From Jannaschia helgolandensis (GTDB taxonomy: Bacteria > Pseudomonadota > Alphaproteobacteria > Rhodobacterales > Rhodobacteraceae), in assembly GCF_900109285.1 (NCBI RefSeq), contig NZ_FNZQ01000001.1, positions 1,021,001-1,085,000 of the forward strand: DNA of 64,000 bases. The letters run 5' to 3'. Of this stretch, positions 10,321 to 63,470 are shown one piece after another; positions within the stretch are counted from its first letter, which is position 1, and each line of letters opens with the position of its first letter. A program made the translations under genes and the position numbers. A model generated the notes under the pieces. The model had not been told where the DNA came from and did not search any database. It saw only the letters and a program-made list of their open reading frames with translations.

Positions 10321-10327
10321 GGCCCGG

Positions 10328-12436: not shown

Positions 12437-12454
12437 TCTGGCGCGCCATCCGCG

Positions 12455-14806: not shown

Positions 14807-14951
14807 GGCTATCATTTAGCAAGCCTACCTAGGGACGCCCAGCGCAGTGACGACGCTGACGCCTAGATGTGCAAATAAGAGTTTTCTGCCCGATATTTAC
14901 GCAGCAAAAAGAGATAGCGGAAGCAAGATTCAGCCGATGCGCGAAGTCAGA

Positions 14952-41003: not shown

Positions 41004-41004
41004 A

Positions 41005-41775: not shown

Positions 41776-41825
41776 GAATTCATCCCTGTCATTTGGTATA
41801 TTACGACGGTGCATACGAAGGTATT

Positions 41826-41844
41826 ACATGGGTCATACCCATGT
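41826..41844. promoter_or_regulatory. Perfect inverted repeat upstream of the galactose-dehydrogenase-like gene
   Basis: ACATGGGT (41826-41833), CAT spacer, ACCCATGT (41837-41844). It lies in the 82-base space after GH36, the largest gap in this part of the operon, about 50 bases upstream of the SDR start. It may be an operator of an internal promoter or an mRNA hairpin. Confidence 0.45.
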
Positions 41845-41857
41845 GCGCCTCTGCCCG

Positions 41858-44035: not shown

Positions 44036-44058
44036 GGGCAGTCTCGGGTCGGTCGGTG

Positions 44059-46232: not shown

Positions 46233-46314
46233 ATGGATGCCTCCGGGTCAGGGGCGTGGTGTCTGCGGCACATTCGGAAGCCTGTCAGCTTGCGGATACG
46301 TCGGCTGGTGGGAT

Positions 46315-46363
46315 GCACCCACCCTGCGAGAGGTGGGTGCAAGAGGCGGGGCAGAACCCCGCC
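46315..46363 (-). repeat. Tandem hairpins between binding-protein and permease genes
   Basis: Stem 1: GCACCCACC (46315-46323) / GGTGGGTGC (46332-46340). Stem 2: GGCGGGG (46345-46351) / CCCCGCC (46357-46363), nine bases after the binding-protein stop. Such hairpins after a binding-protein gene usually protect its mRNA end or partly stop transcription, so that more binding protein than permease is made. Confidence 0.6.
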
Positions 46364-46372
46364 CTGCGTCGA

Positions 46373-47614
46373 TTATTGCGCGTAAATGCGCTGACGGGCC
46401 TGCTCAAGGCGTTGCAGGATGTCGTCGAGGTTGTCGGGGAACACCATGAACTCCTGCAGGCCTTCCATGCCGACCGACGCCATTTCCGCCGGGAAATCCC
46501 GGTCGAAGAACTGGGCGATGCCGCCCTTGGCATTGTTGGTCAGCATCTCGAAGCCCTGATTCAGGAATTCGTCGTCATCGACCGAGGAGGCCGCGTTGAC
46601 CGGAAGCTGGCCCAGCGCATCGCCCGCATTGATCTTGGTCTGGACGTCGGCGGTGGTCACGAACTTGAGGAATTCGCGCGCGGCTTCCTTGTTCGAGGCC
46701 CCCGAAGGGATATGGAACGTGTCGATCGGCGCATCCTCGCCCTGCGGAATGCCTTCCGTGATGATCGGGAACTGGTAGAAGTCGATCTGATCATCCGTCA
46801 GGCCCGCTTCGCGCATCGGCGCCACGGCAAAGTTGCCGATCAGATAGGCAGTGGCTTCGCCGTTGACCATGAAGGGCAGCGCCTCCTGCCAGGAGTAGTT
46901 CTGGTGGTCGGGCAGGAAGGCCCCCATGTCGATCAGCTTGCGCCAGTTGGCAAAGGTATCGCGGACGCGCTGATCGGTCCATTCGACCTCACCCTGCGCC
47001 AGTTGCATGTGAAAGTCGAAGCCGTTGGTCCGCATGTTCATATAGTCGAACCAGCCGCCTGCGGTCCAAAGGAACTTGGTGCCGATGGCATAGCAGGAGC
47101 GGCCCGAATCGATGATGACCTGGCAGTTCGCGATCTCCTGCTCGAAGGTCTCCGGCTCTTCCAGACCCAGTTCTGCGAAGATATCCTCGCGGTAATAGAG
47201 GCCCCAGTTATAGTAGGTATAGGGCACGCCCCATTGCTTGTCGTCGATGGTCAGCGCGCCCTTGACGGCGTCCAGACCCTCGATATCGCCCCAGAGGTCC
47301 GACACGTCTTCGAACAGACCGGCATTGACATAGGGGCCCATGCGGTTGGCGGCATACCAGTTGATGACGTCGGGCGGGTTGGCGGTCAGCGCATTGCGGA
47401 TCTGACCTTTCCAGCCGTCGCGGTCGACGACTTCCAGTTCGATGTTCAGGTCGGGGTGCATTTCGCCGAAGTCGGCGACAAGACCCTCCATCACCGCGCG
47501 GGGCGCAGGGTTCGACATGTCGGATACGATCCGCATATCGCCGGACAGGGGGTTGGCGAAAGCAACGCCGGTCATGATGGTGGAAGCGGCAAGAGCCGTC
47601 AGAATGGATCGCAT
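46373..47614 (-). CDS. Extracellular sugar-binding protein of the ABC importer (family 1)
   Basis: 413 aa with a signal peptide (MRSILTALAASTIMTGVAFA). Family 1 solute-binding protein: IELEVVDRDGWKGQIRNALTANPPDVINW, AVKGALTIDDKQWGVPYTYYNWGLYYREDIF (only key parts given), and EAARVF-like hinge regions such as SNKEAAREFLKFV. It delivers a mono- or oligosaccharide, most likely a galactoside. GGGAGG five bases before the ATG; divergent from the IclR regulator. Confidence 0.9.
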   Translation of the reverse strand: MRSILTALAASTIMTGVAFANPLSGDMRIVSDMSNPAPRAVMEGLVADFGEMHPDLNIELEVVDRDGWKGQIRNALTANPPDVINWYAANRMGPYVNAGLFEDVSDLWGDIEGLDAVKGALTIDDKQWGVPYTYYNWGLYYREDIFAELGLEEPETFEQEIANCQVIIDSGRSCYAIGTKFLWTAGGWFDYMNMRTNGFDFHMQLAQGEVEWTDQRVRDTFANWRKLIDMGAFLPDHQNYSWQEALPFMVNGEATAYLIGNFAVAPMREAGLTDDQIDFYQFPIITEGIPQGEDAPIDTFHIPSGASNKEAAREFLKFVTTADVQTKINAGDALGQLPVNAASSVDDDEFLNQGFEMLTNNAKGGIAQFFDRDFPAEMASVGMEGLQEFMVFPDNLDDILQRLEQARQRIYAQ

Positions 47615-47733: not shown

Positions 47734-48552
47734 GTGAACATCCAGACAGACACCAGCACCGTCACAGGCCGCGACGGCAGCGACGGGACCGTGGGCAAGG
47801 CCCTTGGCGTTCTCGATCGCGTGGCGGCCTTCGGTCGTCCGGTCCGGTTCACGGAGCTGTTGGAGGTGTCGCCGTTTCCCAAGGCGACGCTGTACCGTCT
47901 GCTGCAGACCCTGACCAAACAGGGGATGCTGGGGTTCGACCCCGAACGGGGCACCTATGTGCCGGGGTTGCGGCTGGTGCGGATGGCGCATGCGGCCTGG
48001 GCGCAGTCGAGTCTGGCCCCGATCGCGCGGTCGCATCTGGATCGCCTGAGCCGCGCGGTCGGCGAGACGGTGCATCTGGCGCAACTGGACGGCGGCCACG
48101 TTCTGTATGTCGACAAGCGCAACGCGGTGCGCCCGGTGCCGATGTATTCCGAAGCCGGCAAGATCGGCCCGGCCTATTGCACGGGGGTCGGCAAGGCGAT
48201 GCTGGCATTCCTGCCCGAGGCCGAGCGCGAGGCGGCGCTGGTCCAGCAAAGCTGGCATCGGTTCACGCCCAATACGCTGACGGATGCCGACGCGATGCGG
48301 GCCGAACTGGACGTGATTCGCACCGAGGGAAACGCCTTCGACCGCGAGGAGCACGAGCCGGGCATTCATTGCATCGCCATGCCGGTCCTGTCGCAGGGCG
48401 GTCGCGTTCTGGGCGCCGTGTCGGTCACATCGTCGACGGACCGGGGCACATTGGAGAATCTGAAGCGCCATCTGCCGCACTTGCGGCAGGCGGTGGACAG
48501 AATTGCCGGGGAAGTCCGCGACTGGCGCTTCCCCGATCAGACAGAGGGATAG
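47734..48552 (+). CDS. IclR-family transcriptional regulator
   Basis: 272 aa from the GTG at 47734. N-terminal winged helix-turn-helix (LGVLDRVAAFGRPVRFTELLE, FPKATLYRLLQTLTKQGML; key parts), then an IclR effector domain with VHLAQLDGGHVLYVDKR, GPAYCTGVGKAMLAFLP and GIHCIAMPVL. Probably senses a sugar or sugar acid and controls the divergent galactoside operon and the ATPase five bases downstream. Confidence 0.9.
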   Translation: MNIQTDTSTVTGRDGSDGTVGKALGVLDRVAAFGRPVRFTELLEVSPFPKATLYRLLQTLTKQGMLGFDPERGTYVPGLRLVRMAHAAWAQSSLAPIARSHLDRLSRAVGETVHLAQLDGGHVLYVDKRNAVRPVPMYSEAGKIGPAYCTGVGKAMLAFLPEAEREAALVQQSWHRFTPNTLTDADAMRAELDVIRTEGNAFDREEHEPGIHCIAMPVLSQGGRVLGAVSVTSSTDRGTLENLKRHLPHLRQAVDRIAGEVRDWRFPDQTEG

Positions 48553-49707: not shown

Positions 49708-50316
49708 ATGGCAGGGACACGTCGCATGGGAGGGCACGTGGGAGGACTTCTGACGATCATCCGCACACTGGGAGCGGTCAACGCCGGTGCGCTGGCCGTG
49801 GGCCGCTGGGTCGGCATCGCCTGCATGGCGTTGATGGTCGTGTTCATACTGGTGCAGGTCTTCTGGCGCTATGTGCTGAACAATCCGCTGCCCTGGCCGG
49901 AAGAAGCCGCGCGCTTTCTGATGCTGTGGTTGATGGTCGTGGCCCCGACGGCGCTGCGCCGGGGCGGGTTCGTCGCCATCGACATGATACAACTGGCCCT
50001 GCCGCGCTTTGTCGGCGGGGTGCTGAACCTGATCCTGTTGCTGCTGGCGCTTCTGGTGCTGGTCTTCGCCGTCAGGATCGGGTGGTCCGAGGTCACGGGC
50101 TTTTCGGGCCGTTTCGCAACTTCGTCGCTGTATTATCCGACCGTCGATGGCTGGGAAAAGGTGCCGCGCAGCTGGATGATGGCGTCGCTGCTCGTCGGGT
50201 TCATAATGCTGACCTCGGTCACGGTGGAGCTGATCCTGCGGCAGATCGCCACATTGGCCGGAAGGGACGACGATCTGCCGGTCATCCCCGAGACCGAAAT
50301 GGTAGGGGCCGAATAG
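49708..50316 (+). CDS. TRAP transporter small permease (DctQ)
   Basis: 202 aa by the ATG at 49708; ATG at 49726 or GTG at 49738 (GGGAGG upstream) may be the real start. Four membrane helices with the DctQ motif NPLPWPEEAARFLMLWLMVV and RRGGFVAIDM. First gene of a dctQ-dctM-dctP unit. Substrate unknown. Confidence 0.87.
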   Translation: MAGTRRMGGHVGGLLTIIRTLGAVNAGALAVGRWVGIACMALMVVFILVQVFWRYVLNNPLPWPEEAARFLMLWLMVVAPTALRRGGFVAIDMIQLALPRFVGGVLNLILLLLALLVLVFAVRIGWSEVTGFSGRFATSSLYYPTVDGWEKVPRSWMMASLLVGFIMLTSVTVELILRQIATLAGRDDDLPVIPETEMVGAE

Positions 50317-51609
50317 ATGCTGGTCTGGTTCCTGCCTGCGTTTCTTGTGCTGCTGATGATTGGCCTGCCGGTGTTTTTTGCCCTGCTGGCCGCGCCGGGC
50401 ATCCTTTTGTGGCTGAGCGGACAGGAGAAGGATTTCGTCCTTCTGTATCGGAACGTCTATAACGGCATGGACAGCTTCCCCCTGATGGCGATCCCGTTCT
50501 TCCTGCTGGCGGGCGAGATGATGAACCGCGGCGGCATCACCATGCGGCTGGTCGAATTCAGTCAGGCCCTGGTCGGGCATTTCCGCGCCGGTCTGGCACA
50601 GGTGAATATCTTGTCGTCGATGCTGTTCGCGGGCCTGTCCGGGTCGGCGGTGGCGGATACATCCGCGCTGGGGTCGATGTTGATTCCCGCGATGGAGAGG
50701 GAAGGTTATACCCGCAAATTTGCCGCCGCCGTGACCGCCGCATCCTCGGTCATCGGGCCGATCATTCCGCCATCGGGCATCATGATCATCTATGCCTATG
50801 TGATGGAGCAATCGGTCGCCGCGCTGTTCCTTGCCGGTATCGTTCCCGGCGTTCTGGTCGGCGTCGGACTGATGGTTGTCACCAATGTCATGGCGCGCCG
50901 CAACCCCGGTGGTTTCCCGGACCTGAAGCGCCGCGCGACATGGGGCGAAAAGGGACAGGCGTCCCTGAAGGCCTTCTTCCCGCTGCTGACGCCGGTGATC
51001 ATTCTGGGCGGTATACTGGGCGGAGCCTTCACGCCGACCGAGGCCAGCGCCGTGGCCGTGGCCTATGCCGTCATCGTCTCGTTGTTCCTGTTGCGTGAAA
51101 TGACATGGCGCGACCTGCCGAACGTGTTGTCGCGGGCAGCGATCATGTCGTCGGTGGTCTTGTTGCTGGTCGGCGCGGCGATGGCGTTCAAAACGGTCGT
51201 GTCCCTGTCCCACGCGCCCGAGGCGCTGGCCGCGCTCATCCTGTCGCTGTCGGAAAACCCGCTGGTCCTGTTGTTGCTGATCAACCTGTTGCTGTTCATC
51301 GTCGGCATGTTTCTGGATGCGGGTCCGGCAATCATCATCCTTGGCCCGATCCTGGGGCCGATCTTCACGTCGCTGGGTGTCGATCCGGTGCATTTCGCCA
51401 TCATCATGTCGGTCAACCTGACCGTCGGGCTGGCGACGCCCCCGATGGGGCTGGTGTTGTTCGTGGCCAGTTCCGTGTCGGGCGAACGGGTGGAAACCAT
51501 CGCCCGCGCGATTCTGCCGTTCCTGGCCGTCGAAGTCTTCGTGATCTTCCTGATCACCTATGTGCCTGCCATATCTCTGGCAGTGCCGCGCTTCTTCGGG
51601 TTCTTATAA
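50317..51609 (+). CDS. TRAP transporter large permease (DctM)
   Basis: 430 aa, about 12 membrane helices. DctM signatures: GLSGSAVADTSALGSMLIPAM, ASSVIGPIIPPSGIMIIYA (key parts), GGAFTPTEASAVAVAYA. It starts right at the end of the small permease gene and does the sodium-driven transport step. Confidence 0.93.
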   Translation: MLVWFLPAFLVLLMIGLPVFFALLAAPGILLWLSGQEKDFVLLYRNVYNGMDSFPLMAIPFFLLAGEMMNRGGITMRLVEFSQALVGHFRAGLAQVNILSSMLFAGLSGSAVADTSALGSMLIPAMEREGYTRKFAAAVTAASSVIGPIIPPSGIMIIYAYVMEQSVAALFLAGIVPGVLVGVGLMVVTNVMARRNPGGFPDLKRRATWGEKGQASLKAFFPLLTPVIILGGILGGAFTPTEASAVAVAYAVIVSLFLLREMTWRDLPNVLSRAAIMSSVVLLLVGAAMAFKTVVSLSHAPEALAALILSLSENPLVLLLLINLLLFIVGMFLDAGPAIIILGPILGPIFTSLGVDPVHFAIIMSVNLTVGLATPPMGLVLFVASSVSGERVETIARAILPFLAVEVFVIFLITYVPAISLAVPRFFGFL

Positions 51610-51638
51610 ATAACCGGTCCAAAAGGGAGAGAGACCTC

Positions 51639-52706
51639 ATGAAACTGATCAACATATTCAAGGCGGGCGCGCTGGCCGCGATTACCGCGCTGCCGTCGGT
51701 GGCCTTTGCCGATGCCCACGCCATCAACATCCGCGCGACCGCCAACTCCAACGAGAACGACGAGGACTATGACGGACTGGTCGTCTTCAAGAACTATGTC
51801 GAGGCGGCGTCGAACGGTGCCATCACGGTCGAATTGTTCATCGGCACGCAGCTTTGCTCGAACGGCGCGGAATGCCTGCAGGGCGTGGCCGACGGGTCCA
51901 TCGACGTCTTCGTGACGACGTCCGGCGGCGCGGCCGGCATCTTCCCCTATGTGCAGATCTTTGACCTGCCGTACCTGATGTCCGACGACCGCATCGCCGA
52001 GGAAGTGCTGACCAACACCGCGCTGACCAGTCAGCTGCGGGCCAAGGCGCTGGAAGATTCGGGCGATGCGATCCGCATCATGACCGTGGGCAACACCGGC
52101 GGCTGGCGCAACTTCGCCAATACCCAGCGCCGGGTCGAGATGCCCACCGATCTGGAAGGCATGAAGATCCGCACTGTGGTCGCCGACCTGCCGCAGGAGT
52201 TGGTGCGCGCGCTGGGTGCTTCGCCCACGCCGATCCCGTGGCCCGAGCTGTTCACTTCGCTGCAGACCGGCGTGGTCGAAGGGTCGAAGAACGGCATCAC
52301 CGACATCATGGGTATGAAGTTCCCGGATGCGGGGCTGCAATACATGACGCTGGACGGGCACGCCTACATGGCTGCGATCTGGGTGATGAACAACGAGAAG
52401 TTCCAGGCGATGGACGACGACATGAAGCGCGTTGTCGTCGATGGATTTGCGGCGTTGCAGCAGGCGACCTTCGCCTCGCCCAAGCGCAAGTCGATCCAGG
52501 CCTATGAGGATTTCGTGGCCGGTGGCGGCGATCTCTATGTGCCCAGCCCCGAGCAGAAGCAGGCCTTCCAGGATGCGGCGGCCCCGGTTTATGACTGGTT
52601 CGCGGGCAACGTGGACGGCGGCGAGGAAATGCTGGCCAACTTCCGCACGGCAATCGCCGAGGCGGAGGAGAACGTCGGCGCCCGTCGCGCGCGCGATCTG
52701 GAATGA
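51639..52706 (+). CDS. TRAP transporter substrate-binding protein (DctP)
   Basis: 355 aa from the ATG at 51639 with AAAGGGAGAGAG upstream. Signal peptide ending SVAFA-DAHA. DctP fold: EAASNGAITVELFIGTQLC, IFDLPYLMSDDR, IRTVVADLPQELVRALGASPTPIPWPELFTSLQTG (key parts: SPTPIPWPE) and VVEGSKNGI. The binding site usually has an arginine for a carboxylate or sulfonate. Substrate unknown; organic acid or sulfonate is likeliest. Confidence 0.9.
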   Translation: MKLINIFKAGALAAITALPSVAFADAHAINIRATANSNENDEDYDGLVVFKNYVEAASNGAITVELFIGTQLCSNGAECLQGVADGSIDVFVTTSGGAAGIFPYVQIFDLPYLMSDDRIAEEVLTNTALTSQLRAKALEDSGDAIRIMTVGNTGGWRNFANTQRRVEMPTDLEGMKIRTVVADLPQELVRALGASPTPIPWPELFTSLQTGVVEGSKNGITDIMGMKFPDAGLQYMTLDGHAYMAAIWVMNNEKFQAMDDDMKRVVVDGFAALQQATFASPKRKSIQAYEDFVAGGGDLYVPSPEQKQAFQDAAAPVYDWFAGNVDGGEEMLANFRTAIAEAEENVGARRARDLE

Positions 52707-54021: not shown

Positions 54022-54501
54022 TCACCGAAACGGATACATCCAGACCTTGTAGTCCCCCACCAGTTCCAGCGCCTTTGCGATCTGTTCAGGGGTCATTTTC
54101 TTCACCACCTCCTCCTGCGAAATCGCGGCGTCCGGGTCGCCTCCGATGGCCGAGAGCGCGTACCACATATAGGCGCGCACAAGGTCGGGCGCGGGCATGC
54201 CCAGGCCGACTTCGTAATACCAGCCGACGCCGGATTGCGCGCCGGGATGCCCCTTCATCGCCGCGCGCAGATACCAGTCGAAGGCGCGCACCGGGTCGCG
54301 CGTCACCCCCAGGCCCATCGCATACATCACGCCGATCAACTCCTCTGCATCGGCATTGCCGGAGCGGGCCGCCGGTTCGAGCGCGGCGCGCGCCTCGGCG
54401 AAGGCCCCGGCCTCCATCAGATCGCGGGCCGCTTCGATATCTGCGGTCGCGGGGCTGGACACTGACAACAGGGTGGCCAAGATCGCGGCATGAAATTTCA
54501 T
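54022..54501 (-). CDS. Sel1-repeat (TPR-like) periplasmic protein
   Basis: 159 aa with a signal peptide (MKFHAAILATLLSVSSPATA). Two to three Sel1-like repeats follow (AEELIGVMYAMGLGVTRDPVRAFDWYLRAAMKGHPGAQSGVGWYY; key motif VRAFDWYLRAA). GAGGAGG six bases before the ATG is a strong ribosome site. Its first 12 coding bases are shared with the divergent peroxidase gene. Likely protein-protein scaffold in the periplasm. Confidence 0.82.
   Translation of the reverse strand: MKFHAAILATLLSVSSPATADIEAARDLMEAGAFAEARAALEPAARSGNADAEELIGVMYAMGLGVTRDPVRAFDWYLRAAMKGHPGAQSGVGWYYEVGLGMPAPDLVRAYMWYALSAIGGDPDAAISQEEVVKKMTPEQIAKALELVGDYKVWMYPFR
54490..54501. repeat. Palindromic shared start codons of divergent genes
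   Basis: ATGAAATTTCAT is its own reverse complement. It encodes Met-Lys-Phe-His as the first four codons of the minus-strand Sel1 gene and also of the plus-strand peroxidase gene. Confidence 0.9.
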
Positions 54502-55779
54502 ACGATCCTCCTCGGCCTCAGCTTGGCCGTGTCGCCCGCGCCAGCGCAAGAGGTGGTGTTCAACGACTATTCCGAAGACCGCGCCGCCATCGGACAGTTG
54601 CTGTTCTATGATCCGATCCTGTCGGGCAACCGCAACATCAGTTGCGCCACCTGTCACCACGCCGACACGTTCTCGGCCGATGCGCTGAGCCTTGGCATCG
54701 GCGAGGGCGGGAAAGGGATCGGCACGCGCCGCACCGTCGCCGACGGGGCCATCGTCAAGCGGGTGCCGCGCAACGCGCCGGGGCTGTGGAACATCGGCGC
54801 GACGGAATTCACCAGTTTTTTCCACGACGGGCGCGTATCGGTTTCGGATGCCTATGACACGGGCTACGACAGCCCGGCGGAGGAATGGCTGCCGGTCGGT
54901 CTGCCCAACCTGCTGGCGGTTCAGGCCCTGTTCCCGCTGACCGCACAGTTCGAGATGGCGGGCAATGTCGGAGAAAACGAGGTGATCGGCGCCGTCTCCG
55001 ACCGCATCGACGGGGGCTGGCCGATTCTGGCGAAACGGGTGCGAACGATCCCCGCCTATGGCGATGCGCTTGTCGAGGCTTTCGCTCTGAACCGCCCCGA
55101 AGATATCGACATTCGGCATATTGCCATCGCCCTGGCTGATTTCATGAATGCCGAATGGCGTTCGCTGGATGCGCCTTATGATCTGTGGCTGGCGGGACAG
55201 GGCAATCTGACCCCGGCGCAGGATCGGGGCCGCATGCTGTTCTTCGGCAAGGGTGGTTGCGCGTCCTGCCACTCCGGCCCGCTGTTTACGGACCAGAACT
55301 TCTACGCGCTGGCCCTTCCGCCCTTCGGCCCCGGTCGGACGCGACGTTTCGACCCGATGCCGCGCGACGTCGGGCGGATGGCCGAAACCGACGATCTGGA
55401 CGATGCTTACCGCTTTCGCACCCCGTCTTTGCGCAATGTCACCCTGACGGGGCCGTATGGGCACAACGGAGCATATCCGACGCTGGCCGGGATCATCCGC
55501 CACCATGCCGATCCGGTTGCGGCGACGGCCCGCTGGACACCCGAACTGGCCAATCTGCCCGACGCGCCGTGGCTGGCGTCGGGCGACTTCGTGATCCGCA
55601 GTGATGCGCGCGAAATGGCACGCGTATCGGCCAAACTGGACATCCGGCCCGTCGTTCTGTCGGACGCTGAAGTGGCCGATCTGGTCGCATTCATGGGCGC
55701 GCTGGAAGGGGGCGAGAGCCGGTATGGCCGCCTGGGCGTGCCCGATGCCGTGCCGTCGGGACTGGCGGTGGAGCGATGA
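54490..55779 (+). CDS. Di-heme cytochrome c peroxidase (CcpA/MauG family)
   Basis: 429 aa with a signal peptide (MKFHTILLGLSLAVSPAPAQ), so periplasmic. Two heme motifs: CATCHH near residue 52 and CASCHS near 257; GQLLFYDPILSGNRNISC and TPSLRNVTLTGPYGHNGAYPTL are family signatures. It reduces hydrogen peroxide with electrons from cytochrome c, or performs MauG-like oxidation. There is no strong ribosome site before the start. It overlaps the kinase gene by four bases, so it heads the putative sulfosugar operon. Confidence 0.88.
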   Translation: MKFHTILLGLSLAVSPAPAQEVVFNDYSEDRAAIGQLLFYDPILSGNRNISCATCHHADTFSADALSLGIGEGGKGIGTRRTVADGAIVKRVPRNAPGLWNIGATEFTSFFHDGRVSVSDAYDTGYDSPAEEWLPVGLPNLLAVQALFPLTAQFEMAGNVGENEVIGAVSDRIDGGWPILAKRVRTIPAYGDALVEAFALNRPEDIDIRHIAIALADFMNAEWRSLDAPYDLWLAGQGNLTPAQDRGRMLFFGKGGCASCHSGPLFTDQNFYALALPPFGPGRTRRFDPMPRDVGRMAETDDLDDAYRFRTPSLRNVTLTGPYGHNGAYPTLAGIIRHHADPVAATARWTPELANLPDAPWLASGDFVIRSDAREMARVSAKLDIRPVVLSDAEVADLVAFMGALEGGESRYGRLGVPDAVPSGLAVER

Positions 55780-56618
55780 TACGCCTTCTGGTCTGCGGCA
55801 TCTCCGTGATGGATTACGTCCACCGGGTTGCGGCCTTGCCCGTGTCCGAGGGCAAGCACCGCAGCACCTCGTTCGAGCGGATCGGCGGGGGCTGCGCCGC
55901 GAATGCCGCCGTCGCCGCCGCGCGACTGGGTGCCGAAGTGACGCTGATGACGCGGATGGGCGCGGATGCAACGGGCGACGAACTGGCGGGACTTCTGGCC
56001 GGTCAGAACATCGTCCCGGCCTTCGCGCGCGGCGGGCGCACGCCCTTGTCATCGGTCATGGTGGACCCGGCGGGCGAGCGGATGATCGTGAACTTTCCGG
56101 GCGCCGACCTGCCTGATACCCCGCCCGACGTCCCGACATTCGACGCCACGCTCTGCGATTGCCGTTGGCCCCAGGCGACCGAGGCCGTCTTGCGCGCCGC
56201 CCGCGCCGCCGGGATGCCCGCGGTGCTGGACGGCGAGAAATACACGCCCGAGTCCCTGGCCGCGTTGGCCAGCCACGTCGTGTTCAGCGCCCCGGGCCTG
56301 CGCGATTTCACCGGCATCGACGCCATGCCCCAGGCCCTGGCCGACGCCGCCGCGCGCCTTCCGGGCCGTGTTGCCTATACTGATGGACCGAACGGCGTGA
56401 CTTGGGCCGATGGCCCGCATATTCCCGCCCAGCGGATCGCTTCCGTCGATACGCTGGGCGCGGGTGATGTCTGGCACGGGGCCTTCACGCTGGCGCTGGC
56501 CCGGGGCCGCGATCTGACTGCCGCATCGACTTTCGCCAACCATGTCGCCGCCACGAAATGCACGCGTGCGGGTGGCTGGGACCAATATCCGACGCATATC
56601 GAACTGGAGACCGAATGA
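55776..56618 (+). CDS. PfkB-family kinase resembling 6-deoxy-6-sulfofructose kinase YihV
   Basis: 280 aa. PfkB fold with GGGCAANAAVAAARLGA near the N-terminus, catalytic-base motif DTLGAGDVWHGAF (~residue 230) and AATKCTRAGG at the end. From memory it follows E. coli YihV closely: both open MIR..CGI(S/T)VMD, share MVDxxGERxIxNxP, a D-x-RW segment (CDCRW here), HxxFSxPGL and KCTRxGG. This makes sulfofructose 1-kinase the best call, with another ketose or ketose-phosphate kinase as the alternative. Overlaps both neighbours by ATGA. Confidence 0.8.
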   Translation: MIRLLVCGISVMDYVHRVAALPVSEGKHRSTSFERIGGGCAANAAVAAARLGAEVTLMTRMGADATGDELAGLLAGQNIVPAFARGGRTPLSSVMVDPAGERMIVNFPGADLPDTPPDVPTFDATLCDCRWPQATEAVLRAARAAGMPAVLDGEKYTPESLAALASHVVFSAPGLRDFTGIDAMPQALADAAARLPGRVAYTDGPNGVTWADGPHIPAQRIASVDTLGAGDVWHGAFTLALARGRDLTAASTFANHVAATKCTRAGGWDQYPTHIELETE

Positions 56619-57643
56619 CCCTGCACCTTACCCCCGGCAAGCAGTTGGGATTCCGCCGCATGGCCGATGCCGCCGGACGCTTCAAGATGACCGCCGTCGA
56701 TCAGCGCCCGCCGATCAAGACCCCGGTCGAGGCGCATCACGGCAAGCCCGACTGGGACGATATGGCCCGCGTCAAGACGATGCTGCTCGAGGCGTTGCAG
56801 CCCTCGTCCACGGCGATGCTGCTGGACCCGCATTACGCGATCCCGCATGGCTGGCAGGTATTCGACCCGCGGAAGGGATTGATCGTGACGTTGGAGGACA
56901 GCCTGTTCCGCGACACCGGGCAGGGCCGTTTCTCGGCCGAGATCGACGATTGGTCCGTGGGCAAGATCAAGCGGATGGGCGGCGATGCCGTGAAGGTGCT
57001 GGCATGGTACAGGCCTGATATTTCGGACGACGTGCGCAAGGCGCAGCACGATTTCGTCAAACGCACGGGCGAAGCCTGCGCGAAATACGACATCCCGTTC
57101 CTGTTCGAACTGCTGGTCCATCCAGTCGAGACTGACGCGGAACAGACCTCCGAATACACCGAGATGGCGACCAAGCATTCCGACCATGTGCTGGCCTCGG
57201 TCGAGGCCTTCGCGGGTGCGGATTACGGCGTCGACGTCTTCAAGCTGGAAAGCCCGGTTCCGGCCAAGGGCATCGCCGGGGGCGAGGCCGCTGTTCAGAC
57301 GCTGTTCGACGAGATGGGCAAACTGGCCGCGCGGCCTTGGGTCATGCTGTCTGCGGGCGCGGGCAAGCCTGACTTCAAGACGGTGCTGGACTATGCCTAT
57401 GCCGCCGGGGCCTCTGGCTTCCTTGCGGGGCGCGCGATCTGGCTGGATGCGTTCAATGCCTATCCGGATTGGGACGCCATGCAGGCGGGGCTGACACGCG
57501 ACTCGGTCCCATACATGGCCGAACTGAACGCGCTGACCGATGCGCAGGCGACACCGTGGCACAGGCATGCTTGCTATGGCGGCGACGGATCGGCCTTTAT
57601 CGATCCGACGGCCGGGTTCCGGCACGGATACGGGGACATCTGA
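56615..57643 (+). CDS. LacD/YihT-family class I aldolase
   Basis: 342 aa from the ATG at 56615. Class I aldolase of the tagatose-1,6-bisphosphate/6-deoxy-6-sulfofructose-1-phosphate type: MTAVDQRPPIK, GGDAVKVLAWYRPD, Schiff-base lysine in DVFKLESPVP, and ASGFLAGRAIW, all shared with LacD and YihT. It is about the length of LacD (326 aa) and longer than YihT (292 aa). Next to a YihV-like kinase it most likely splits sulfofructose-1-phosphate into dihydroxyacetone phosphate and sulfolactaldehyde. Confidence 0.82.
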   Translation: MTLHLTPGKQLGFRRMADAAGRFKMTAVDQRPPIKTPVEAHHGKPDWDDMARVKTMLLEALQPSSTAMLLDPHYAIPHGWQVFDPRKGLIVTLEDSLFRDTGQGRFSAEIDDWSVGKIKRMGGDAVKVLAWYRPDISDDVRKAQHDFVKRTGEACAKYDIPFLFELLVHPVETDAEQTSEYTEMATKHSDHVLASVEAFAGADYGVDVFKLESPVPAKGIAGGEAAVQTLFDEMGKLAARPWVMLSAGAGKPDFKTVLDYAYAAGASGFLAGRAIWLDAFNAYPDWDAMQAGLTRDSVPYMAELNALTDAQATPWHRHACYGGDGSAFIDPTAGFRHGYGDI

Positions 57644-58968
57644 TGCGCATTGGACTCCTGCCTCTGGGGCGGCCCACGTTCGACGTGCCCTATGCCGAGG
57701 AAAAGCTGGCGGCAGTGCTGGCGCAGCTGGATGCGTCGGGGCATGAGATTGTCGGCCCGCGCAGGTTGCTGATGGGCCCTGACGAGGCTGCGCTGAAGTC
57801 AACCGCCGACGCCGATGTCCTGCTGATCCTTCAGATCACCTTCACCGACGCCGCCTTCGCAACCCGCGCCGCAGTGGCCCACAAGGGACGCGTCGCGATC
57901 TGGGCCGTGCCGGAGCCGCGGACCGGCGGACGGTTGCGGCTGAATGCGTTTTGCGGGCTGAACCTGCTTTCGCATGCACTGGGCCTGAACGACCGGCGTT
58001 TCACCTGGGCCTATGGCGATACCGTCGACCTGGACGCCCTGTTGTCGGGGCCGGAGGTCGCGCCAAAGCGTGGTCATGCCAGCGATGCCGCTCCGGTCGC
58101 GATCAACCGCGATCTTCGGATCGGGCGGATCGGGGAGCGGCCCGATGGCTTTGACACCTGCGCCTATGACGCGCCCGCGCTGAAGGCGCTGACCGGCGCG
58201 CAGGTCACCGAACTGGACCTGCCGGACCTGTTCGACCGTGCCCGCGCTTTGCCCGATGCGGCCGTCGCGCCCTATGCCGCCAAAGCCGAAGGTCTGGGAG
58301 GGATCGCGCAATTGGACAAGGGCGAGCTGGACCGGTCCCTGCGCCTGGCCGGGGCGTTGACCGGGCTGAAAGCGGAGCATGGCTTCGACGCGATGGCCAT
58401 CCGCTGCTGGCCGGAAACCTTTACCGAATATGGCGGAGCGGTTTGCGGCCCGGTCTCCATGCTGGGCGAGGCGCGAACCCCCTGCGCCTGCGAGGCCGAC
58501 GTCTATGGCGCGGTCACCCAGGCCATCCTTCAGGACGTGGCCGATGCCCCGGTGTTCCTTGCCGATCTGGTGGATATGGACGGCGAGACCGGGGTCGTCT
58601 GGCACTGCGGTCAGGCGCCCGTGTCGATGGCGGCCAGGGCTCCGGATGCGACGGTCCACACCAACCGCAAACAGGCGCTGTTGCTTGAGTTTCCTTTGAA
58701 AGCGGGCCGCGTGACGCTGTTTCGGTTGAGCCAGGCCTATGGCCAGCCGCAGGTCGTCATCGCGACGGGCGATGTGGTCGACGCGCCGATGGCGTTTACC
58801 GGCACCAGCGGCACAGTGCGCTTTGACCGGGGGGCGGATGCCGTGTGCCGGGACGTCATGGCCAGCGGGCTGGAGCATCACATGGCGCTGGCTTACGGCG
58901 ACCATGCGGAGGCTCTGCGCGGGGTCGCGGCGGAGTTGGGGATCGACGTGCTGGAACTGGGCTCATGA
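57643..58968 (+). CDS. L-fucose/arabinose-isomerase-like protein, candidate sulfoquinovose isomerase
   Basis: 441 aa from the ATG at 57643 (TGATG overlap with the aldolase). Fucose-isomerase fold: an N-terminal Rossmann-like half, then the metal-site region AIRCWPETFTEYGG, CACEADVYGAVTQ and VVWHCGQAP, with Glu, Glu/Asp and His as probable ligands. Shares the fold of SqvD-type sulfoquinovose isomerases used in several sulfoglycolytic pathways. It would convert sulfoquinovose to sulfofructose; a plain aldose isomerase is the alternative. Confidence 0.75.
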   Translation: MRIGLLPLGRPTFDVPYAEEKLAAVLAQLDASGHEIVGPRRLLMGPDEAALKSTADADVLLILQITFTDAAFATRAAVAHKGRVAIWAVPEPRTGGRLRLNAFCGLNLLSHALGLNDRRFTWAYGDTVDLDALLSGPEVAPKRGHASDAAPVAINRDLRIGRIGERPDGFDTCAYDAPALKALTGAQVTELDLPDLFDRARALPDAAVAPYAAKAEGLGGIAQLDKGELDRSLRLAGALTGLKAEHGFDAMAIRCWPETFTEYGGAVCGPVSMLGEARTPCACEADVYGAVTQAILQDVADAPVFLADLVDMDGETGVVWHCGQAPVSMAARAPDATVHTNRKQALLLEFPLKAGRVTLFRLSQAYGQPQVVIATGDVVDAPMAFTGTSGTVRFDRGADAVCRDVMASGLEHHMALAYGDHAEALRGVAAELGIDVLELGS

Positions 58969-60056
58969 TCAGATATGGCCTGATCGGCGCGGGTATGATG
59001 GGGCAGGAGCATATCCGTAATATTGCCCTGCTGGATGGCGCGACGGTCACTGCCGTTGCCGACCCCGATGCGGGTATGCGCGCTGCCGCCATGGCGTCCG
59101 CCGGGGCGCAGGGGTTTGCCGATGCCGGGGATCTGATTGCCGCAAACTGTTGCGATGTCTACCTTATTGCCGCACCGAACGATCTTCATGCCGGGCTGGT
59201 TCAGCAGCTGCTGGCGACTGACAAGCCGATACTGGTCGAGAAGCCTTTGGCCACGACGACAGCCGACTGCCGAGATCTTCTGAATATGGCGCAAGGCCGC
59301 GTCGCACCGATCTGGGTGGCGATGGAGTATCGATTCATGCCGCCGGTCCAACGGCTGATCCAGGCTCTGGACCAGGGGACCGTGGGGGTGCCGCGCATGG
59401 TTGCCATCCGTGAACATCGCTTTCCGTTCTTGCAGAAGGTCGACGACTGGAACCGGTTCAATGCGCGCTCCGGTGGCACTCTGGTCGAGAAGTGTTGCCA
59501 CTTCTGGGACCTTATGCGCCTGATGCTGCGCGCCGATCCGGTGCGGGTTTATGCCAGCGCCGGAGTCGACGTGAATCACCGCGACGAACGCTATATCGGG
59601 GGGGTGCCGGATATCGTCGATAACGCTTATGTCGTCGTCGATTTTGCCAATGGCACCCGCGGAATGCTGGATCTTTGCATGTTCGCGGAAGGGTCGCACT
59701 GGCAGGAGATCATCGCCGTCACCGGACCCACCGCGCGGGTCGAGGCATTGATCCCCGGTCCGGCGCGATTTACGTCCGATGGCAAGCCGAGGGAGGCACA
59801 GTTGATCACATCCTTGCGCGCCTTGAAGCAGGAGGTTCGCGAGACGATCCATACGCCGCCGGAGTTGCTGATCGCAGGCGATCATCACGGCTCGACCTTT
59901 TATCAGCACGAGCGGTTTCTGAACCTTGTCCGCAGTGGCAAGGGACGCCCCGAGGTCAGCCTTGAAGATGGCTACTGGTCGGTTCTGGTCGGCGAGGCGG
60001 CGGAGGAATCCGCACGTTCCGGTCAGGCGATCGACCTGCGGGGACGCGGGGTGTGA
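58965..60056 (+). CDS. Gfo/Idh/MocA-family protein, candidate NAD-dependent sulfoquinovosidase
   Basis: 363 aa from the ATG at 58965. N-terminal Rossmann domain (YGLIGAGMMGQEHI), EKPLATT motif, and a C-terminal domain with EHRFPFLQKVDDWNRFN and GGTLVEKCCHFWDLM. This family includes ordinary sugar oxidoreductases and also NAD-dependent glycosidases; the latter include sulfoquinovosidases (GH188). No GH31 (YihQ-type) sulfoquinovosidase lies in the operon, so this protein could supply the glycosidase step. That is an inference; a sugar dehydrogenase remains possible. Confidence 0.7.
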   Translation: MIRYGLIGAGMMGQEHIRNIALLDGATVTAVADPDAGMRAAAMASAGAQGFADAGDLIAANCCDVYLIAAPNDLHAGLVQQLLATDKPILVEKPLATTTADCRDLLNMAQGRVAPIWVAMEYRFMPPVQRLIQALDQGTVGVPRMVAIREHRFPFLQKVDDWNRFNARSGGTLVEKCCHFWDLMRLMLRADPVRVYASAGVDVNHRDERYIGGVPDIVDNAYVVVDFANGTRGMLDLCMFAEGSHWQEIIAVTGPTARVEALIPGPARFTSDGKPREAQLITSLRALKQEVRETIHTPPELLIAGDHHGSTFYQHERFLNLVRSGKGRPEVSLEDGYWSVLVGEAAEESARSGQAIDLRGRGV

Positions 60057-60093
60057 GGGGCATGCGACAGAGGGGTGACCGACGGGTGATCCA

Positions 60094-60113
60094 CGTCGGA
60101 TATGGGTCCGACG
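60094..60113 (+). other. Intergenic hairpin inside the operon
   Basis: CGTCGGA (60094-60100) / TCCGACG (60107-60113), six-base loop, no T-run. It sits in the only sizeable gap (100 bases) of the operon and may be an mRNA stability element or a weak attenuator. Confidence 0.4.
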
Positions 60114-60156
60114 CGACAGGCGCATGGAAAACGAACAATGCTCAGGAGAGCGTGTG

Positions 60157-61059
60157 ATGATACTCATTACCGAATTCATGGACGAAACTTGGGTCGACTG
60201 GCTGCGGGACCGGGCCGAGGTCCTGTACGAGCCGGACCTGCCGGATCGTCCCGAGGATCTGGCGGAACACGCCAGACTGGCGCAGGCCCTGATCGTGAGG
60301 AACCGGACGCAGGTGCGCGGTGACCTGCTGTATTCGGGGTTTTCCTGTGTCGGGCGGCTGGGTGTCGGACTCGACAATATCGACATGGACGGCTGTGCGG
60401 AACACGATATCGCGGTGTTTCCTGCGACCGGGGCCAATACGCTGTCCGTGGCGGAATATGTCGTGACGACTTCGGCCATGCTGCTGCGCGGGGCTTACGA
60501 CCTGCGGACGTCGATGGAGGCGGGCGACTGGCCGCGTGGCGTGGCAGGTCAGGGCCGGGAGGTCGCGGGCAAGACGCTGGGGCTGGTGGGGTTCGGCGAA
60601 ATCGCACGGGTGACGGCGCGGCTGGCGGGGGCGATGGGAATGACCTGCCTTGCCTCCGACCCTTACGCCGAGGAATTTCCGGGCGCGATGGAGGGGACCG
60701 AGGAAGAAGTCCTGACGCAGAGCGATGTCATCTCGCTGCATGTTCCGCTGACCGACGAGACACGGGGCATGATCGATGCCCGCGTCATCGCGTCGATGAA
60801 GCCCGGCGCGGTGCTGATCAATGCGGCGCGGGGCGGTGTGGTGGATGAGGCGGCGGTGGCGGCGGCATTGAAATCCGGCCATCTTGGCGGCGCGGCGCTG
60901 GATACGTTCACGACTGAACCGCTGGGCCAGGACCACCCCTTTGCCGGGGTTCCGAACCTGATCCTGACGCCGCATATCGGTGGCGTCACGGTTGAGGCGA
61001 ATGCCCGCGTGTCCGAGATGACGGCGCGCAAGGTGGCCGCGCATCTGGGTTTGGACTAA
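60157..61059 (+). CDS. SerA-like D-2-hydroxyacid dehydrogenase, candidate (S)-sulfolactate dehydrogenase
   Basis: 300 aa from the ATG at 60157 (AGGAG upstream). NAD motif LGLVGFGEIARVTARL, catalytic Arg in INAARGGVVDEA, Glu in FTTEPLG and His in LTPHIGGVT. The N-terminal phrases ITEFMDE, LIVRNRTQV and GRLGVGLDNIDMDGC and the ~300-aa length resemble, as I recall, SlcC, the (S)-3-sulfolactate dehydrogenase, more than phosphoglycerate dehydrogenase, which has an added ACT domain. It could oxidise sulfolactate to sulfopyruvate. Confidence 0.78.
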   Translation: MILITEFMDETWVDWLRDRAEVLYEPDLPDRPEDLAEHARLAQALIVRNRTQVRGDLLYSGFSCVGRLGVGLDNIDMDGCAEHDIAVFPATGANTLSVAEYVVTTSAMLLRGAYDLRTSMEAGDWPRGVAGQGREVAGKTLGLVGFGEIARVTARLAGAMGMTCLASDPYAEEFPGAMEGTEEEVLTQSDVISLHVPLTDETRGMIDARVIASMKPGAVLINAARGGVVDEAAVAAALKSGHLGGAALDTFTTEPLGQDHPFAGVPNLILTPHIGGVTVEANARVSEMTARKVAAHLGLD

Positions 61060-61068
61060 GGCTCGATC

Positions 61069-62022
61069 ATGGACCTGAACCGCTACATCATTACGGGCCA
61101 CGGCCTGACCGCGACCTTTACCGAGTGGGGGGCCGCGCTGGTCGATCTGCGACTGGACGGGCATGACGCGCCGCTGGTTCTGGGGCTGGCCGATCTGAAC
61201 GATTACGCCGCAGGGCAAAGCAATTACATGGGGGCGACCGCAGGACGGTTTGCCAACCGGATCGGCGATGCAAGGTTCACGCTGGGCGGCACGACGTATC
61301 ATCTGGACCCGAACTTCCAGGACCGGCACAGTCTTCATGGCGGCTCCAGGGGCACCGGCAAGCGGGTCTGGACAGTGGCGGATCATCGCGACGACAGCGT
61401 CACCTTCAACATCGCGCTGGCGGACGGAGAAATGGGATACCCCGGTGCGATGCAGATTTCGGCAACCTTTACCTGCGCCCCGGACGCCACGCTGCGGATC
61501 CAGTATCGCGCCACGACCGACGCGCCGACGATCTGCAACCTGGCGCATCATACCTATTGGAACCTTGACGGATCGAACGATATTTCCGGACATTACCTGA
61601 CGGTGAAGGCCGACCGCTATACGCCCGTCGATGACGGCATGATCCCCATCGGGGTCGCGTCGGTGGCGGGTACGGAGTTTGATTTCCGCGCCGGGCGGAT
61701 GTTGCCGGGCGCGGGGCTGCTGGACCATAATCTGTGCCTGTCGGACGCGCGCGTCGCCCTGCGCGATGTGGCGGTGTTGCACGCGCGGGGACTGTCGATG
61801 ACAGTGGCCACGACCGAGCCGGGATTGCAGGTCTATGACGGGGCCAAGCTGAATACACAGGTGCCCGGTCTGGACGGGCGCACCTATCGCGCCCATGCAG
61901 GCGTCGCGCTGGAGGCGCAGAACTGGCCGGATGCGCCGAATCACGACGACTTTCCCGGTGCCGTGCTGCGTCCGGGCGAGACTTATGAACAGACGACCAC
62001 TTTCAGCTTCGAAAAGGACTAG
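61069..62022 (+). CDS. Aldose 1-epimerase (mutarotase)
   Basis: 317 aa. GalM fold: GRFANRIGDARF, HSLHGGSRG, catalytic His in NLAHHTYWNLDG and catalytic Glu in GVALEAQNWPDAPNH. It interconverts alpha and beta anomers of a sugar. In the E. coli sulfoquinovose cluster the equivalent position is filled by mutarotase YihR; a galactose mutarotase serving the upstream island is the alternative. Nine bases after the dehydrogenase stop. Confidence 0.9.
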   Translation: MDLNRYIITGHGLTATFTEWGAALVDLRLDGHDAPLVLGLADLNDYAAGQSNYMGATAGRFANRIGDARFTLGGTTYHLDPNFQDRHSLHGGSRGTGKRVWTVADHRDDSVTFNIALADGEMGYPGAMQISATFTCAPDATLRIQYRATTDAPTICNLAHHTYWNLDGSNDISGHYLTVKADRYTPVDDGMIPIGVASVAGTEFDFRAGRMLPGAGLLDHNLCLSDARVALRDVAVLHARGLSMTVATTEPGLQVYDGAKLNTQVPGLDGRTYRAHAGVALEAQNWPDAPNHDDFPGAVLRPGETYEQTTTFSFEKD

Positions 62023-62024
62023 AC

Positions 62025-63470
62025 ATGGCATTTCAGGACTGGATGAAGCAGGCGAACCTGATCGGTGGCGATTGGGTCGCGGCGGACAGTGGCGAGACGA
62101 TCGACGTGACCAACCCCGCGACGGGCGACGTCATCGGGACTGTGCCCAAAGGCGGAAAGGCCGAGGCCGAACGTGCGATCAAGGCGGCGGTTGCCGCGTT
62201 TCCGGGGTATCGGGATACCTCGCTGATGGATCGCTGCGCGCTGCTGTGGAAATTGCATGATGCGCTGATGGACAACCAGAAAGATCTGGCCGAACTGCTG
62301 ACCGTCGAGATGGGCAAGCCGCTGGCCGAATCGATGGGCGAGATCGCCATCGGTGCGCAATACGTCCGCTGGTTCGCCGAGGAAGCGCGTCGCGCCAAGG
62401 GCGAGATCGTGCCGGCGGGCGTGAACGGACGGCGTATCCTGGTGACGAAACACGCCATCGGCGTGGTGGGCATGATCACGCCGTGGAATTTCCCGTCGTC
62501 GATGCTGGCCCGCAAGATCGCACCGGCACTGGCCGTGGGCTGCACCGTGGTCGCCAAACCCGCGACGGCGACGCCCTATTCCGGGCTGGCCTGGGGTGCG
62601 CTGGCCGAGGAGGTCGGGTTCCCGAAGGGCGTGGTGAACGTCGTCACCGGATCGGCGAAGGATATTTCCAAGGCGATGATGGACAGTTTCGACCTTCGCA
62701 AGATCACCTTCACGGGATCGACCGAAGTCGGCAAGGAGTTGATCCGCGGATCGGCGGATACGGTCAAGAAGGTCTCGATGGAGCTGGGCGGCAACGCGCC
62801 TTTCGTGGTGTTCGACGACGCCGATCTGGAAAAGGCGGTCGAGGGCGCGATGGTGTCGAAGTTCCGCAATGCGGGCCAGACCTGCGTCTGTGCCAACCGG
62901 ATGATCGTGCAGTCGGGCATCCACGACGCCTTCGTCAAGCGGCTGGTCGAGCGGACGGAGGCGCTCAAGGTCGGGGACGGGTTGGAGAAGGGCGTCGAGC
63001 AGGGGCCGATGATCGACATGGATGCGGTCGAGAAGGTCGAGGACTTCGTCGCCGACGCCAGGGACAAGGGCGGCGCGGTCGTCACGGGCGGTGCGCGGCA
63101 CGACAAGGGCGGCACGTTCTTCCAGCCGACGGTTGTCACCGGGGCCACGCAGGCGATGAAATTCGCCACCGAGGAGATTTTCGGTCCGTTGGCCCCGGTG
63201 TTCAAGTTCGAGACCGAGGAAGAGGCCATCGAGATGGCGAACGCCACGGTCTATGGGTTGGCGTGTTACGCCTATACCTCCGATCTGGGGCGGGCGTTCC
63301 GCCTGAACGAAGGGCTGCAATACGGGATGATCGGCATCAACTCGGGCCTTATCACCACGGTCGAGGCGCCGTTCGGCGGCGTCAAGGAAAGCGGTCTGGG
63401 CAAAGAGGGCGGAAGCCAGGGATTGGACGACTACCTGGAGGTCAAATACGTCTGCATCGACGGCATCTGA
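62025..63470 (+). CDS. Semialdehyde-type NAD(P) aldehyde dehydrogenase, candidate sulfolactaldehyde dehydrogenase
   Basis: 481 aa, two bases after the mutarotase stop. ALDH superfamily, succinate-semialdehyde (GabD) branch: TPWNFPSSMLARKIAPAL, TGSTEVGKELI, Glu near residue 253 in MELGGNAPF and Cys near 287 in NAGQTCVCANR. GabD-like enzymes oxidise sulfolactaldehyde to sulfolactate in known sulfosugar pathways, which fits the operon. Succinate or other semialdehydes cannot be excluded. Confidence 0.85.
   Translation: MAFQDWMKQANLIGGDWVAADSGETIDVTNPATGDVIGTVPKGGKAEAERAIKAAVAAFPGYRDTSLMDRCALLWKLHDALMDNQKDLAELLTVEMGKPLAESMGEIAIGAQYVRWFAEEARRAKGEIVPAGVNGRRILVTKHAIGVVGMITPWNFPSSMLARKIAPALAVGCTVVAKPATATPYSGLAWGALAEEVGFPKGVVNVVTGSAKDISKAMMDSFDLRKITFTGSTEVGKELIRGSADTVKKVSMELGGNAPFVVFDDADLEKAVEGAMVSKFRNAGQTCVCANRMIVQSGIHDAFVKRLVERTEALKVGDGLEKGVEQGPMIDMDAVEKVEDFVADARDKGGAVVTGGARHDKGGTFFQPTVVTGATQAMKFATEEIFGPLAPVFKFETEEEAIEMANATVYGLACYAYTSDLGRAFRLNEGLQYGMIGINSGLITTVEAPFGGVKESGLGKEGGSQGLDDYLEVKYVCIDGI

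Follow-up and report, generated by a model that had tools for sequence, protein, structure and literature searches.

A predicted operon for sulfoquinovose catabolism of the sulfo-Embden–Meyerhof–Parnas type, with a mixed enzyme set, in Jannaschia helgolandensis

The operon and its gene content

Within the 3.56 Mb genome of Jannaschia helgolandensis, we analysed a stretch of 64,000 nucleotides (positions 1021001-1085000 of contig NZ_FNZQ01000001.1; hereafter the window, in whose own numbering all coordinates are given), in which seven consecutive open reading frames on the + strand, at 55776-63470, form what is predicted to be an operon for the breakdown of sulfoquinovose (SQ). This sugar, found in the sulfolipid of plants and algae, is produced in amounts of about 10 billion tons annually. 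A preliminary description of this DNA had proposed an SQ operon of the sulfo-Embden–Meyerhof–Parnas (sulfo-EMP) type. All seven frames are present and none has an internal stop, and domain searches returned the families that it had named: a PfkB kinase, a DeoC/LacD aldolase, a protein with a fucose-isomerase C-terminal domain and a Gfo/Idh/MocA protein, followed by a SerA-like D-2-hydroxyacid dehydrogenase, an aldose epimerase (mutarotase) and an aldehyde dehydrogenase. The start codons of three of them were refined from the DNA (isomerase, 57643; Gfo/Idh/MocA protein, assigned below to family GH188, 58965; SerA-like protein, 60157), and residue numbers for these three refer to translations that start one residue before the true start.

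The genes are closely packed, with overlaps of 4 bases between kinase and aldolase, 1 between aldolase and isomerase and 4 between isomerase and GH188 genes, whereas the SerA-like, mutarotase and aldehyde dehydrogenase genes are set off from the gene before by about 100, 9 and 2 bases, respectively. A di-haem peroxidase gene (54490-55779), absent from the earlier list of seven, overlaps the start of the kinase gene by 4 bases at its end; it is an eighth member of the operon, to which we assign no role, and the operon is adjoined by genes for a tripartite ATP-independent periplasmic (TRAP) transporter. Rfam families at gathering score and tRNA genes were sought across the 64-kb window, and none was found. 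The nearest relatives of the locus, judged by its isomerase, are in Jannaschia species (84-86% identity, five records).

The predicted sulfoquinovosidase and core enzymes

The strongest anchor for the proposed pathway is the Gfo/Idh/MocA protein (58965..60056, +), which, to judge from its sequence, is a GH188-type NAD-dependent sulfoquinovosidase. Against solved structures it scores 403 bits with 8ZN9, 364 with 8QC3 and 359 with 8QC2, the next entry reaching only 81. The second and third of these are ArSqgA and FlSqgA, both GH188 enzymes (data statement of Kaur et al., 2023; PMC10755693), and 8ZN9 is labelled just 'oxidoreductase, putative'. The sulfonate triad of ArSqgA (Arg166, Leu170 and Lys172; PMC10755693) corresponds to R153, L157 and K159, kept in all 67 relatives compared, and its sugar-binding and active-site residues (Lys107, Tyr136, Glu189, His193 and His321; PMC10755693) to K94, Y123, E176, H180 and H308, each of which is likewise found in 67/67. 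The mapping was made by motif spacing (a constant offset of 13) and alignment to the solved enzymes; by the same offset, Glu163 of ArSqgA falls on R150, and a conserved E151 sits one place off. The preliminary description could not know of this GH188 identity, which makes the sulfo-EMP-type reading firmer than when it was put forward.

The kinase (55776..56618, +) is predicted to be a YihV-type sulfofructose kinase. Among solved PfkB relatives, its best match is YihV (7ag6, 190 bits), followed by a 'sugar kinase' (2RBC, 157 bits) and ribokinases (80 bits or fewer), and it is 42% identical to YihV of Escherichia coli, with which the motifs first used to recognise it (MVDPAGERMIVN, DCRW and KCTRAGG) were found to align. 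The sulfonate-binding residues of YihV, which we take to be K27, N109 and R138, have their equivalents in K27, N106 and R130. A check of these residues, suggested when the operon was first proposed, found all three, although the equivalent of N109 is not invariant (58/71 relatives) and those of K27 and R138 (both 71/71) discriminate poorly because they also occur in 2RBC.

The third protein (57643..58968, +) is a predicted SQ-sulfofructose isomerase, SftI/SqvD-like, with the arabinose/fucose isomerase fold. Its only match in NCBIfam is to SftI (NF048012; 250.8 bits, profile positions 6-440 of 443), at a score below the equivalog cut-off that is considered further on; no match to fucose or arabinose isomerases was obtained there, nor any to the YihS sequence. 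Searches of the PDB with the isomerase sequence, single or as a profile, gave nothing useful, and profile alignment with FucI by hhalign gave no match. Its structural model (pLDDT 91) does match the L-arabinose and L-fucose isomerases AraA and FucI over residues 150-442 (Z 28-33). If the metal ligands of FucI are E337, D361 and H528, as we take them to be, E285 and D309 of the window protein, invariant in 46 sequences, have the same spacing of 24, and H413 or H414 is a candidate for the third ligand.

The aldolase (56615..57643, +) is predicted to be a class I sulfohexulose-1-phosphate (here, sulfofructose-1-phosphate) aldolase of the LacD superfamily. It scores 318 bits against NF009498, above the cut-off of 184, and its model (pLDDT 92) is nearest to 8TNF (46% identity, Z 44.8, root-mean-square deviation 1.7 over 315 residues); next in the fold ranking come LacD (Z 38-40) and then YihT (Z 33, at 24% identity). 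A family profile gave the same order, with 404 bits for 8TNF, 172-182 for LacD entries and 87-89 for YihT entries. The entry 8TNF is titled 'sulfohexulose-1-phosphate aldolase from Paracoccus onubensis strain Merri'; the name that we use rests on that title, and no paper on a sulfohexulose aldolase was found in a literature search. K210 aligns with lysine 193 of YihT, presumably the Schiff-base lysine, and is invariant in 45 sequences. Of the earlier designation as a LacD/YihT-type class I aldolase, membership of class I and of the DeoC/LacD superfamily thus stands and descent from the YihT type does not: orthology with YihT was rejected, as identity to the E. coli protein is 28% and the profile favours 8TNF, then LacD.

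Conservation of the gene set

Using the isomerase, 151 candidate loci were confirmed, of which the best 80, several of them from one genus, were compared. Since some loci are short, gene absences may reflect missing DNA, and the counts are those of one tally, from which alternative tallies differ by 1-2. Relatives were present in 73 of the 80 loci for the kinase, 72 for the aldolase, 71 for the GH188 protein, 63 for the TRAP binding protein, 58 for a Sel1-repeat protein and 57 for the di-haem protein; for the downstream genes the figures were 53 (SerA-like), 52 (mutarotase) and 43 (aldehyde dehydrogenase). Kinase, aldolase, isomerase and GH188 genes occur together in 64/80, in one order and on one strand in 64/64, and with the aldehyde dehydrogenase gene in 37/80. 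As controls, the downstream neighbours proC and a gene for a YbjN-like protein were found in none of 71 non-Jannaschia loci (6/9 Jannaschia loci), and three upstream ABC transporter genes in 2-3 of the 71; two further downstream controls were set aside, topA because it lies past the ends of the loci and a 2-hydroxyacid dehydrogenase gene because of a misread frame. Linkage of the four core genes exceeds chance.

An independent sample, drawn from the family at one genome for each genus, comprised 149 genomes, that of the window included, and was searched at E 1e-60 or better. The isomerase was found in 14 of them, and GH188 in 74, among which were all 14 (hypergeometric 3e-5), with the two genes adjacent in 12; the aldolase was found in 12, all within the isomerase 14 and all with its gene beside that for the isomerase. 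Much the same operon is found in other genera.

Some variant loci deserve description in their own right. One (L131, in genome G023) has kinase, isomerase, GH188 and SerA-like genes and no aldolase gene, its neighbours by eye being tripartite tricarboxylate transporter genes. On plasmid pZZM402 of Zymomonas mobilis (128-4636), genes for a class II aldolase, a mutarotase, an isomerase relative (38%) and a GH188-like protein adjoin each other; the last is a Gfo/Idh/MocA protein 45% identical to that of the window, with the sulfonate motif R-x3-L-x-K, and this is probably a sulfosugar cluster. On a plasmid of Candidatus Chlorohelix allophototropha (425-14987), an isomerase relative (36%) is encoded near genes resembling those for succinic semialdehyde dehydrogenase (SSADH), phosphofructokinase and phosphoglycerate dehydrogenase (PGDH), in a neighbourhood that also includes nitrite/sulfite reductase and sirohaem genes; the Gfo/Idh/MocA protein here is 26% identical to the window protein, lacks R-x3-L-x-K and is not a close GH188 relative.

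Downstream genes and a probable exit to sulfite

The probable function of the SerA-like 2-hydroxyacid dehydrogenase (60157..61059, +; PF02826) is that of an (S)-sulfolactate dehydrogenase of the SlcC kind, serving an exit step outside the core pathway. This assignment comes from its neighbours in related loci, since ComD/ComE-like genes come after the SerA-like gene in 16/80 loci and a SuyB-like gene directly before it in 7/80. A SuyB-like gene occurs in 8/80 loci altogether, the remaining case (L050) having it within the locus and away from the SerA-like gene, and a ComC-like gene accompanies it in 7 of those 8. These names vary in firmness: ComD and ComE were above cut-off in the one locus scored (L082), the other ComD/ComE and SuyB loci being called by sequence clustering, and in the Hoeflea locus L088 the SuyA-, SuyB- and ComC-like proteins are named by resemblance at scores below cut-off (the first two match only galactarate dehydratase, at 38.6 and 145 of 731 bits, and the third L-sulfolactate dehydrogenase, at 182 of 500 bits). 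In Paracoccus strain Merri, SlcC, ComC and SuyAB form a set for sulfolactate racemisation and sulfolysis (PMC12421959).

Elsewhere, the J. helgolandensis genome encodes Xsc, which scores 921 bits against a cut-off of 676 and has the gene for Pta next to its own (319 bits, cut-off 311), as well as ComE (244 bits, cut-off 221.5) and ComD (147.3 bits, just under its cut-off of 147.95). The latter pair lies near a histidinol-dehydrogenase-family gene that could, we presume, be hpsN. On this gene content, sulfopyruvate can therefore go to acetyl phosphate and sulfite. A search of the genome for PF04295 gave one match, in a frame of 538 residues, and no separate SuyB.

The aldose 1-epimerase (61069..62022, +) is a probable SQ mutarotase, with matches to PF01263 (251 bits) and NF008277 (243.5 bits, cut-off 240), and the aldehyde dehydrogenase (62025..63470, +; PF00171) a probable sulfolactaldehyde (SLA) dehydrogenase of the GabD/SlaB type, reaching 624 bits of the 646 set as cut-off for the SSADH model. 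For SLA dehydrogenases, Arg171 and Arg289 of RlGabD have been proposed as marks, and the equivalent arginines bind substrate in human SSADH. Their counterparts R163 and R281, together with C287 and C289, are present in 43/43 relatives of the window protein, and the arginines are common to SSADH. Taken alone, neither the mutarotase nor the aldehyde dehydrogenase is diagnostic of sulfosugar use.

The transporter, the di-haem protein and other neighbours

The TRAP transporter genes lie upstream (49708-52706) and, by gene context, encode a probable sulfosugar importer. They determine a DctQ-like small permease (49708..50316, +), recognised by its position before DctM and DctP, which had no NCBIfam match and a relative in 57/80 loci; the large permease DctM (50317..51609, +; PF06808, and TIGR00786 at 429 bits, above cut-off); and the solute-binding protein DctP (51639..52706, +; PF03480, and NF037995 above cut-off), whose relatives are mostly 68-92% identical to it. 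The DctP query began at 51684, without the first 15 residues, the start having been placed by eye in the open reading frame. No TRAP transporter for SQ was found in a literature search. The di-haem protein (54490..55779, +) belongs to the cytochrome c peroxidase/MauG family (PF03150), with CxxCH at residues 52 and 257; among the matches listed when the literature was searched for SQ in connection with MauG or cytochrome c peroxidase, there was no link. For DctP and the di-haem protein, as for the SerA-like protein and the aldehyde dehydrogenase, matches in the PDB were at family level only.

Divergent from the di-haem gene and overlapping its start is the gene for the Sel1-repeat protein (54022-54501, -). 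Further upstream (36753-47614, -) there is a cluster for galactosides and, by a De Ley-Doudoroff-type route, galactose, with genes for GH42, an SMP-30 lactonase, 2-keto-3-deoxy-6-phosphogalactonate aldolase, 2-dehydro-3-deoxygalactonokinase, a short-chain dehydrogenase/reductase and GH36, together with ABC transporter genes recognised by eye and an IclR regulator gene at 47734-48552.

The proposed pathway and its alternatives

Candidates for isomerase, kinase, aldolase and SLA dehydrogenase all lie within one operon, which very probably encodes sulfoglycolysis of the sulfo-EMP type from a mixed (hybrid) enzyme set. From gene content, family relationships, conserved residues and conserved linkage, we infer the following reactions, substrates, transport, order of use and flux. 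Import of SQ, or of its glyceryl glycoside, would probably fall to the TRAP transporter; SQ would be freed by the GH188 enzyme by way of a transient NAD-dependent oxidation at C3, and the mutarotase would equilibrate the SQ anomers. The isomerase would convert SQ to sulfofructose, from which the YihV-type kinase would produce sulfofructose-1-phosphate; cleavage of the latter by the LacD-type class I aldolase would yield dihydroxyacetone phosphate (DHAP) and SLA, which the GabD-type dehydrogenase would oxidise to sulfolactate. The SerA-like enzyme would probably then form sulfopyruvate, for whose conversion to acetyl phosphate and sulfite the genome has ComDE and Xsc genes at other places. The operon would also tie a SerA-like gene to sulfolactate oxidation, with the di-haem peroxidase and the TRAP transporter as candidate partners. 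The outcomes named beforehand as telling against such a pathway were a lack of sulfonate-binding residues or a grouping of all three core enzymes with those for tagatose or fucose, and neither was found.

Several observations do weigh against this reading. For the aldolase, LacD is a better match than YihT, and the sulfonate site remains putative. The isomerase reaches 251 bits against the SftI equivalog cut-off of 700 and is on that account filed as SftI-like rather than as SftI, its substrate being predicted only. In 13 of the 71 kinase relatives the equivalent of YihV N109 is replaced (A in 10, S in 3). The mutarotase is GalM-like and only 24.5% identical to YihR, and the aldehyde dehydrogenase, the sole close GabD-type gene product in the genome (others reach at most 42%), is indistinguishable from SSADH by sequence. 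Nor is the gene set constant: the four-gene core is incomplete in 16/80 loci, and two of the 14 isomerase-containing genomes in the one-per-genus sample lack the aldolase. Five loci (L069, L071, L075, L076 and L080) carry kinase and isomerase genes with neither aldolase nor GH188, and the genomes of the first two hold only weak LacD-type aldolases (23-26%). Three Jannaschia loci (L015, J. aquimarina; L016, J. sp. LMIT008; L026, J. sp. Os4) have isomerase and GH188 genes and no LacD-type aldolase genome-wide; one of these loci, that of Os4, also yielded no kinase gene, nor any for the TRAP transporter, the aldolase or the di-haem protein. These three loci suggest decay or replacement of the missing genes. 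A replacement for the aldolase was sought in these three, in L069 and in genomes G023 and G068, with nothing clear emerging.

Might the substrate be some other 6-sulfohexose, such as sulfofucose, processed via sulfotagatose and its phosphate to DHAP and SLA, or might both epimers be used? LacD-type aldolases are lax at C4, and the title of 8TNF reads sulfohexulose, not sulfofructose. Moreover, strain Merri, the source of this nearest solved aldolase, is reported to be a sulfofucose user that does not grow on SQ (PMC12421959). The same account states, however, that growth of Merri on sulfofucose brought no significant rise in its PF00294 and PF01791 proteins and that no sulfotagatose was found (PMC12421959); and in the window the GH188 protein has the SQ-contacting residues, including the glutamate for the C4 hydroxyl, and the isomerase is nearest to the SQ isomerase SftI, all of which leads us to regard this alternative as very unlikely. 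Still less credible, indeed extremely improbable, is an ordinary neutral-sugar operon (of the tagatose, fucose or galactitol type) whose enzymes merely resemble those for sulfosugars. It could appeal to the curated NCBIfam names exceeded at cut-off, which make the aldolase a tagatose enzyme and the mutarotase a galactose enzyme, and to the galactoside cluster nearby, but it would leave unexplained the constancy of the GH188 sulfonate triad, the ComDE and SuyB-like sulfonate genes in some of the same loci, the lack of any NCBIfam match of the isomerase to fucose or arabinose isomerases and the closeness of the aldolase to an enzyme titled for a sulfohexulose phosphate.

A more limited alternative concerns the SerA-like gene, which might have nothing to do with sulfonates and encode a dehydrogenase for phosphoglycerate or hydroxypyruvate, with sulfolactate being excreted, as it is by Arthrobacter using sulfo-EMP (PMC10755693). 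The best named relatives of the protein are PGDHs, and 27/80 loci have no SerA relative in the available DNA. Against this stand the ComDE-like genes that follow its relatives and the SuyB-like gene that precedes them, the naming together of SlcC, ComC and SuyAB in strain Merri (PMC12421959), and the presence of ComE and Xsc in the same genome; we think the alternative unlikely, though not strikingly so. That the features of the operon together represent a marine form of sulfoglycolysis, having its own lineage of class I aldolase and isomerase, TRAP import, a periplasmic step by the di-haem peroxidase that would be new to the use of sulfolipid head groups, and the complete route from SQ through sulfopyruvate to sulfite in a single cell in place of sulfolactate excretion, is a decidedly speculative suggestion that we consider improbable.

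Relation to known systems

In the literature searched, no study of the Jannaschia operon itself was found, the only relevant match being Kaur et al. (2023), where a GH188 protein of Jannaschia faecimaris is a cluster representative in the legend of Fig. 5 (PMC10755693). In our comparison, J. faecimaris DSM 100420 carries the window genes, from dctQ through to that for the aldehyde dehydrogenase, with their order conserved. SQ use in Roseobacter relatives has been credited mainly to the sulfoquinovose monooxygenase (sulfo-SMO) route. A recent survey of sulfoglycolysis applied an identity threshold of 30% (PMC13372026); as the aldolase is below this with respect to YihT and the isomerase has no match to YihS, such surveys may undercount marine sulfoglycolysis.

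The E. coli sulfo-EMP system (YihQRSTUV) has the same intermediates as those proposed here and a kinase of the same family. The two sets differ, as the preliminary description had recognised for all but the aldolase, in that E. coli relies on a sulfoquinovosidase of family GH31, on YihS, an isomerase of the aldose-2-epimerase type, on the aldolase YihT and on the reductase YihU, giving 2,3-dihydroxypropane-1-sulfonate (DHPS). Published descriptions of sulfo-EMP2 (SqvD/SqiK/SqiA) and of hybrid sulfo-EMP1/2 sets show an isomerase of the SqvD/SftI kind, as predicted for the window. Assignment to sulfo-EMP2 was nevertheless rejected, since in those descriptions SqiK belongs to PF00365 and SqiA to PF01116, unlike the window kinase (PF00294) and aldolase (PF01791). 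Hybrid sulfo-EMP clusters have already been described, Proteobacteria included.

Closer likenesses come from clusters with GH188. In that of Arthrobacter sp. AK01, kinase, aldolase and SLA dehydrogenase genes accompany one for a GH188 sulfoquinovosidase, but the cluster has homologues of YihS, YihV and YihT, ABC transporters and no reported mutarotase gene (PMC10755693), in place of the SftI-like isomerase, LacD-type aldolase, TRAP transporter and di-haem peroxidase of the window. The actinobacterial Y160/Y158 GH188 clusters, described by Backlund and Higgins (2024; PMC11465081), share with the window operon GH188, SLA dehydrogenase, a phosphoglycerate-dehydrogenase-like gene, sulfofructose kinase and fucose isomerase, with a sulfofructose phosphate aldolase in one of the two; they differ in having Tyr for Leu170 of GH188 (Leu in the window), ABC transporters and in-cluster genes for sulfolactate sulfo-lyase. 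In strain Merri, a sulfonate cluster is reported to encode a kinase of family PF00294 and an aldolase of family PF01791 (PMC12421959), the latter of which may well be the protein of 8TNF. Cluster 2 of that strain compares with the operon described here in that 8TNF, from the same strain, is 46% identical to the window aldolase, and its SlcC/ComC/SuyAB exit is like the one seen in the Hoeflea relatives; it differs in that the sulfofucose route reported there is of the Entner–Doudoroff type, with no increase in the kinase or the PF01791 aldolase (PMC12421959). Thus, a GH188 cluster from J. faecimaris and hybrid sulfo-EMP sets are already known, and what is unusual here is the mix of enzymes.

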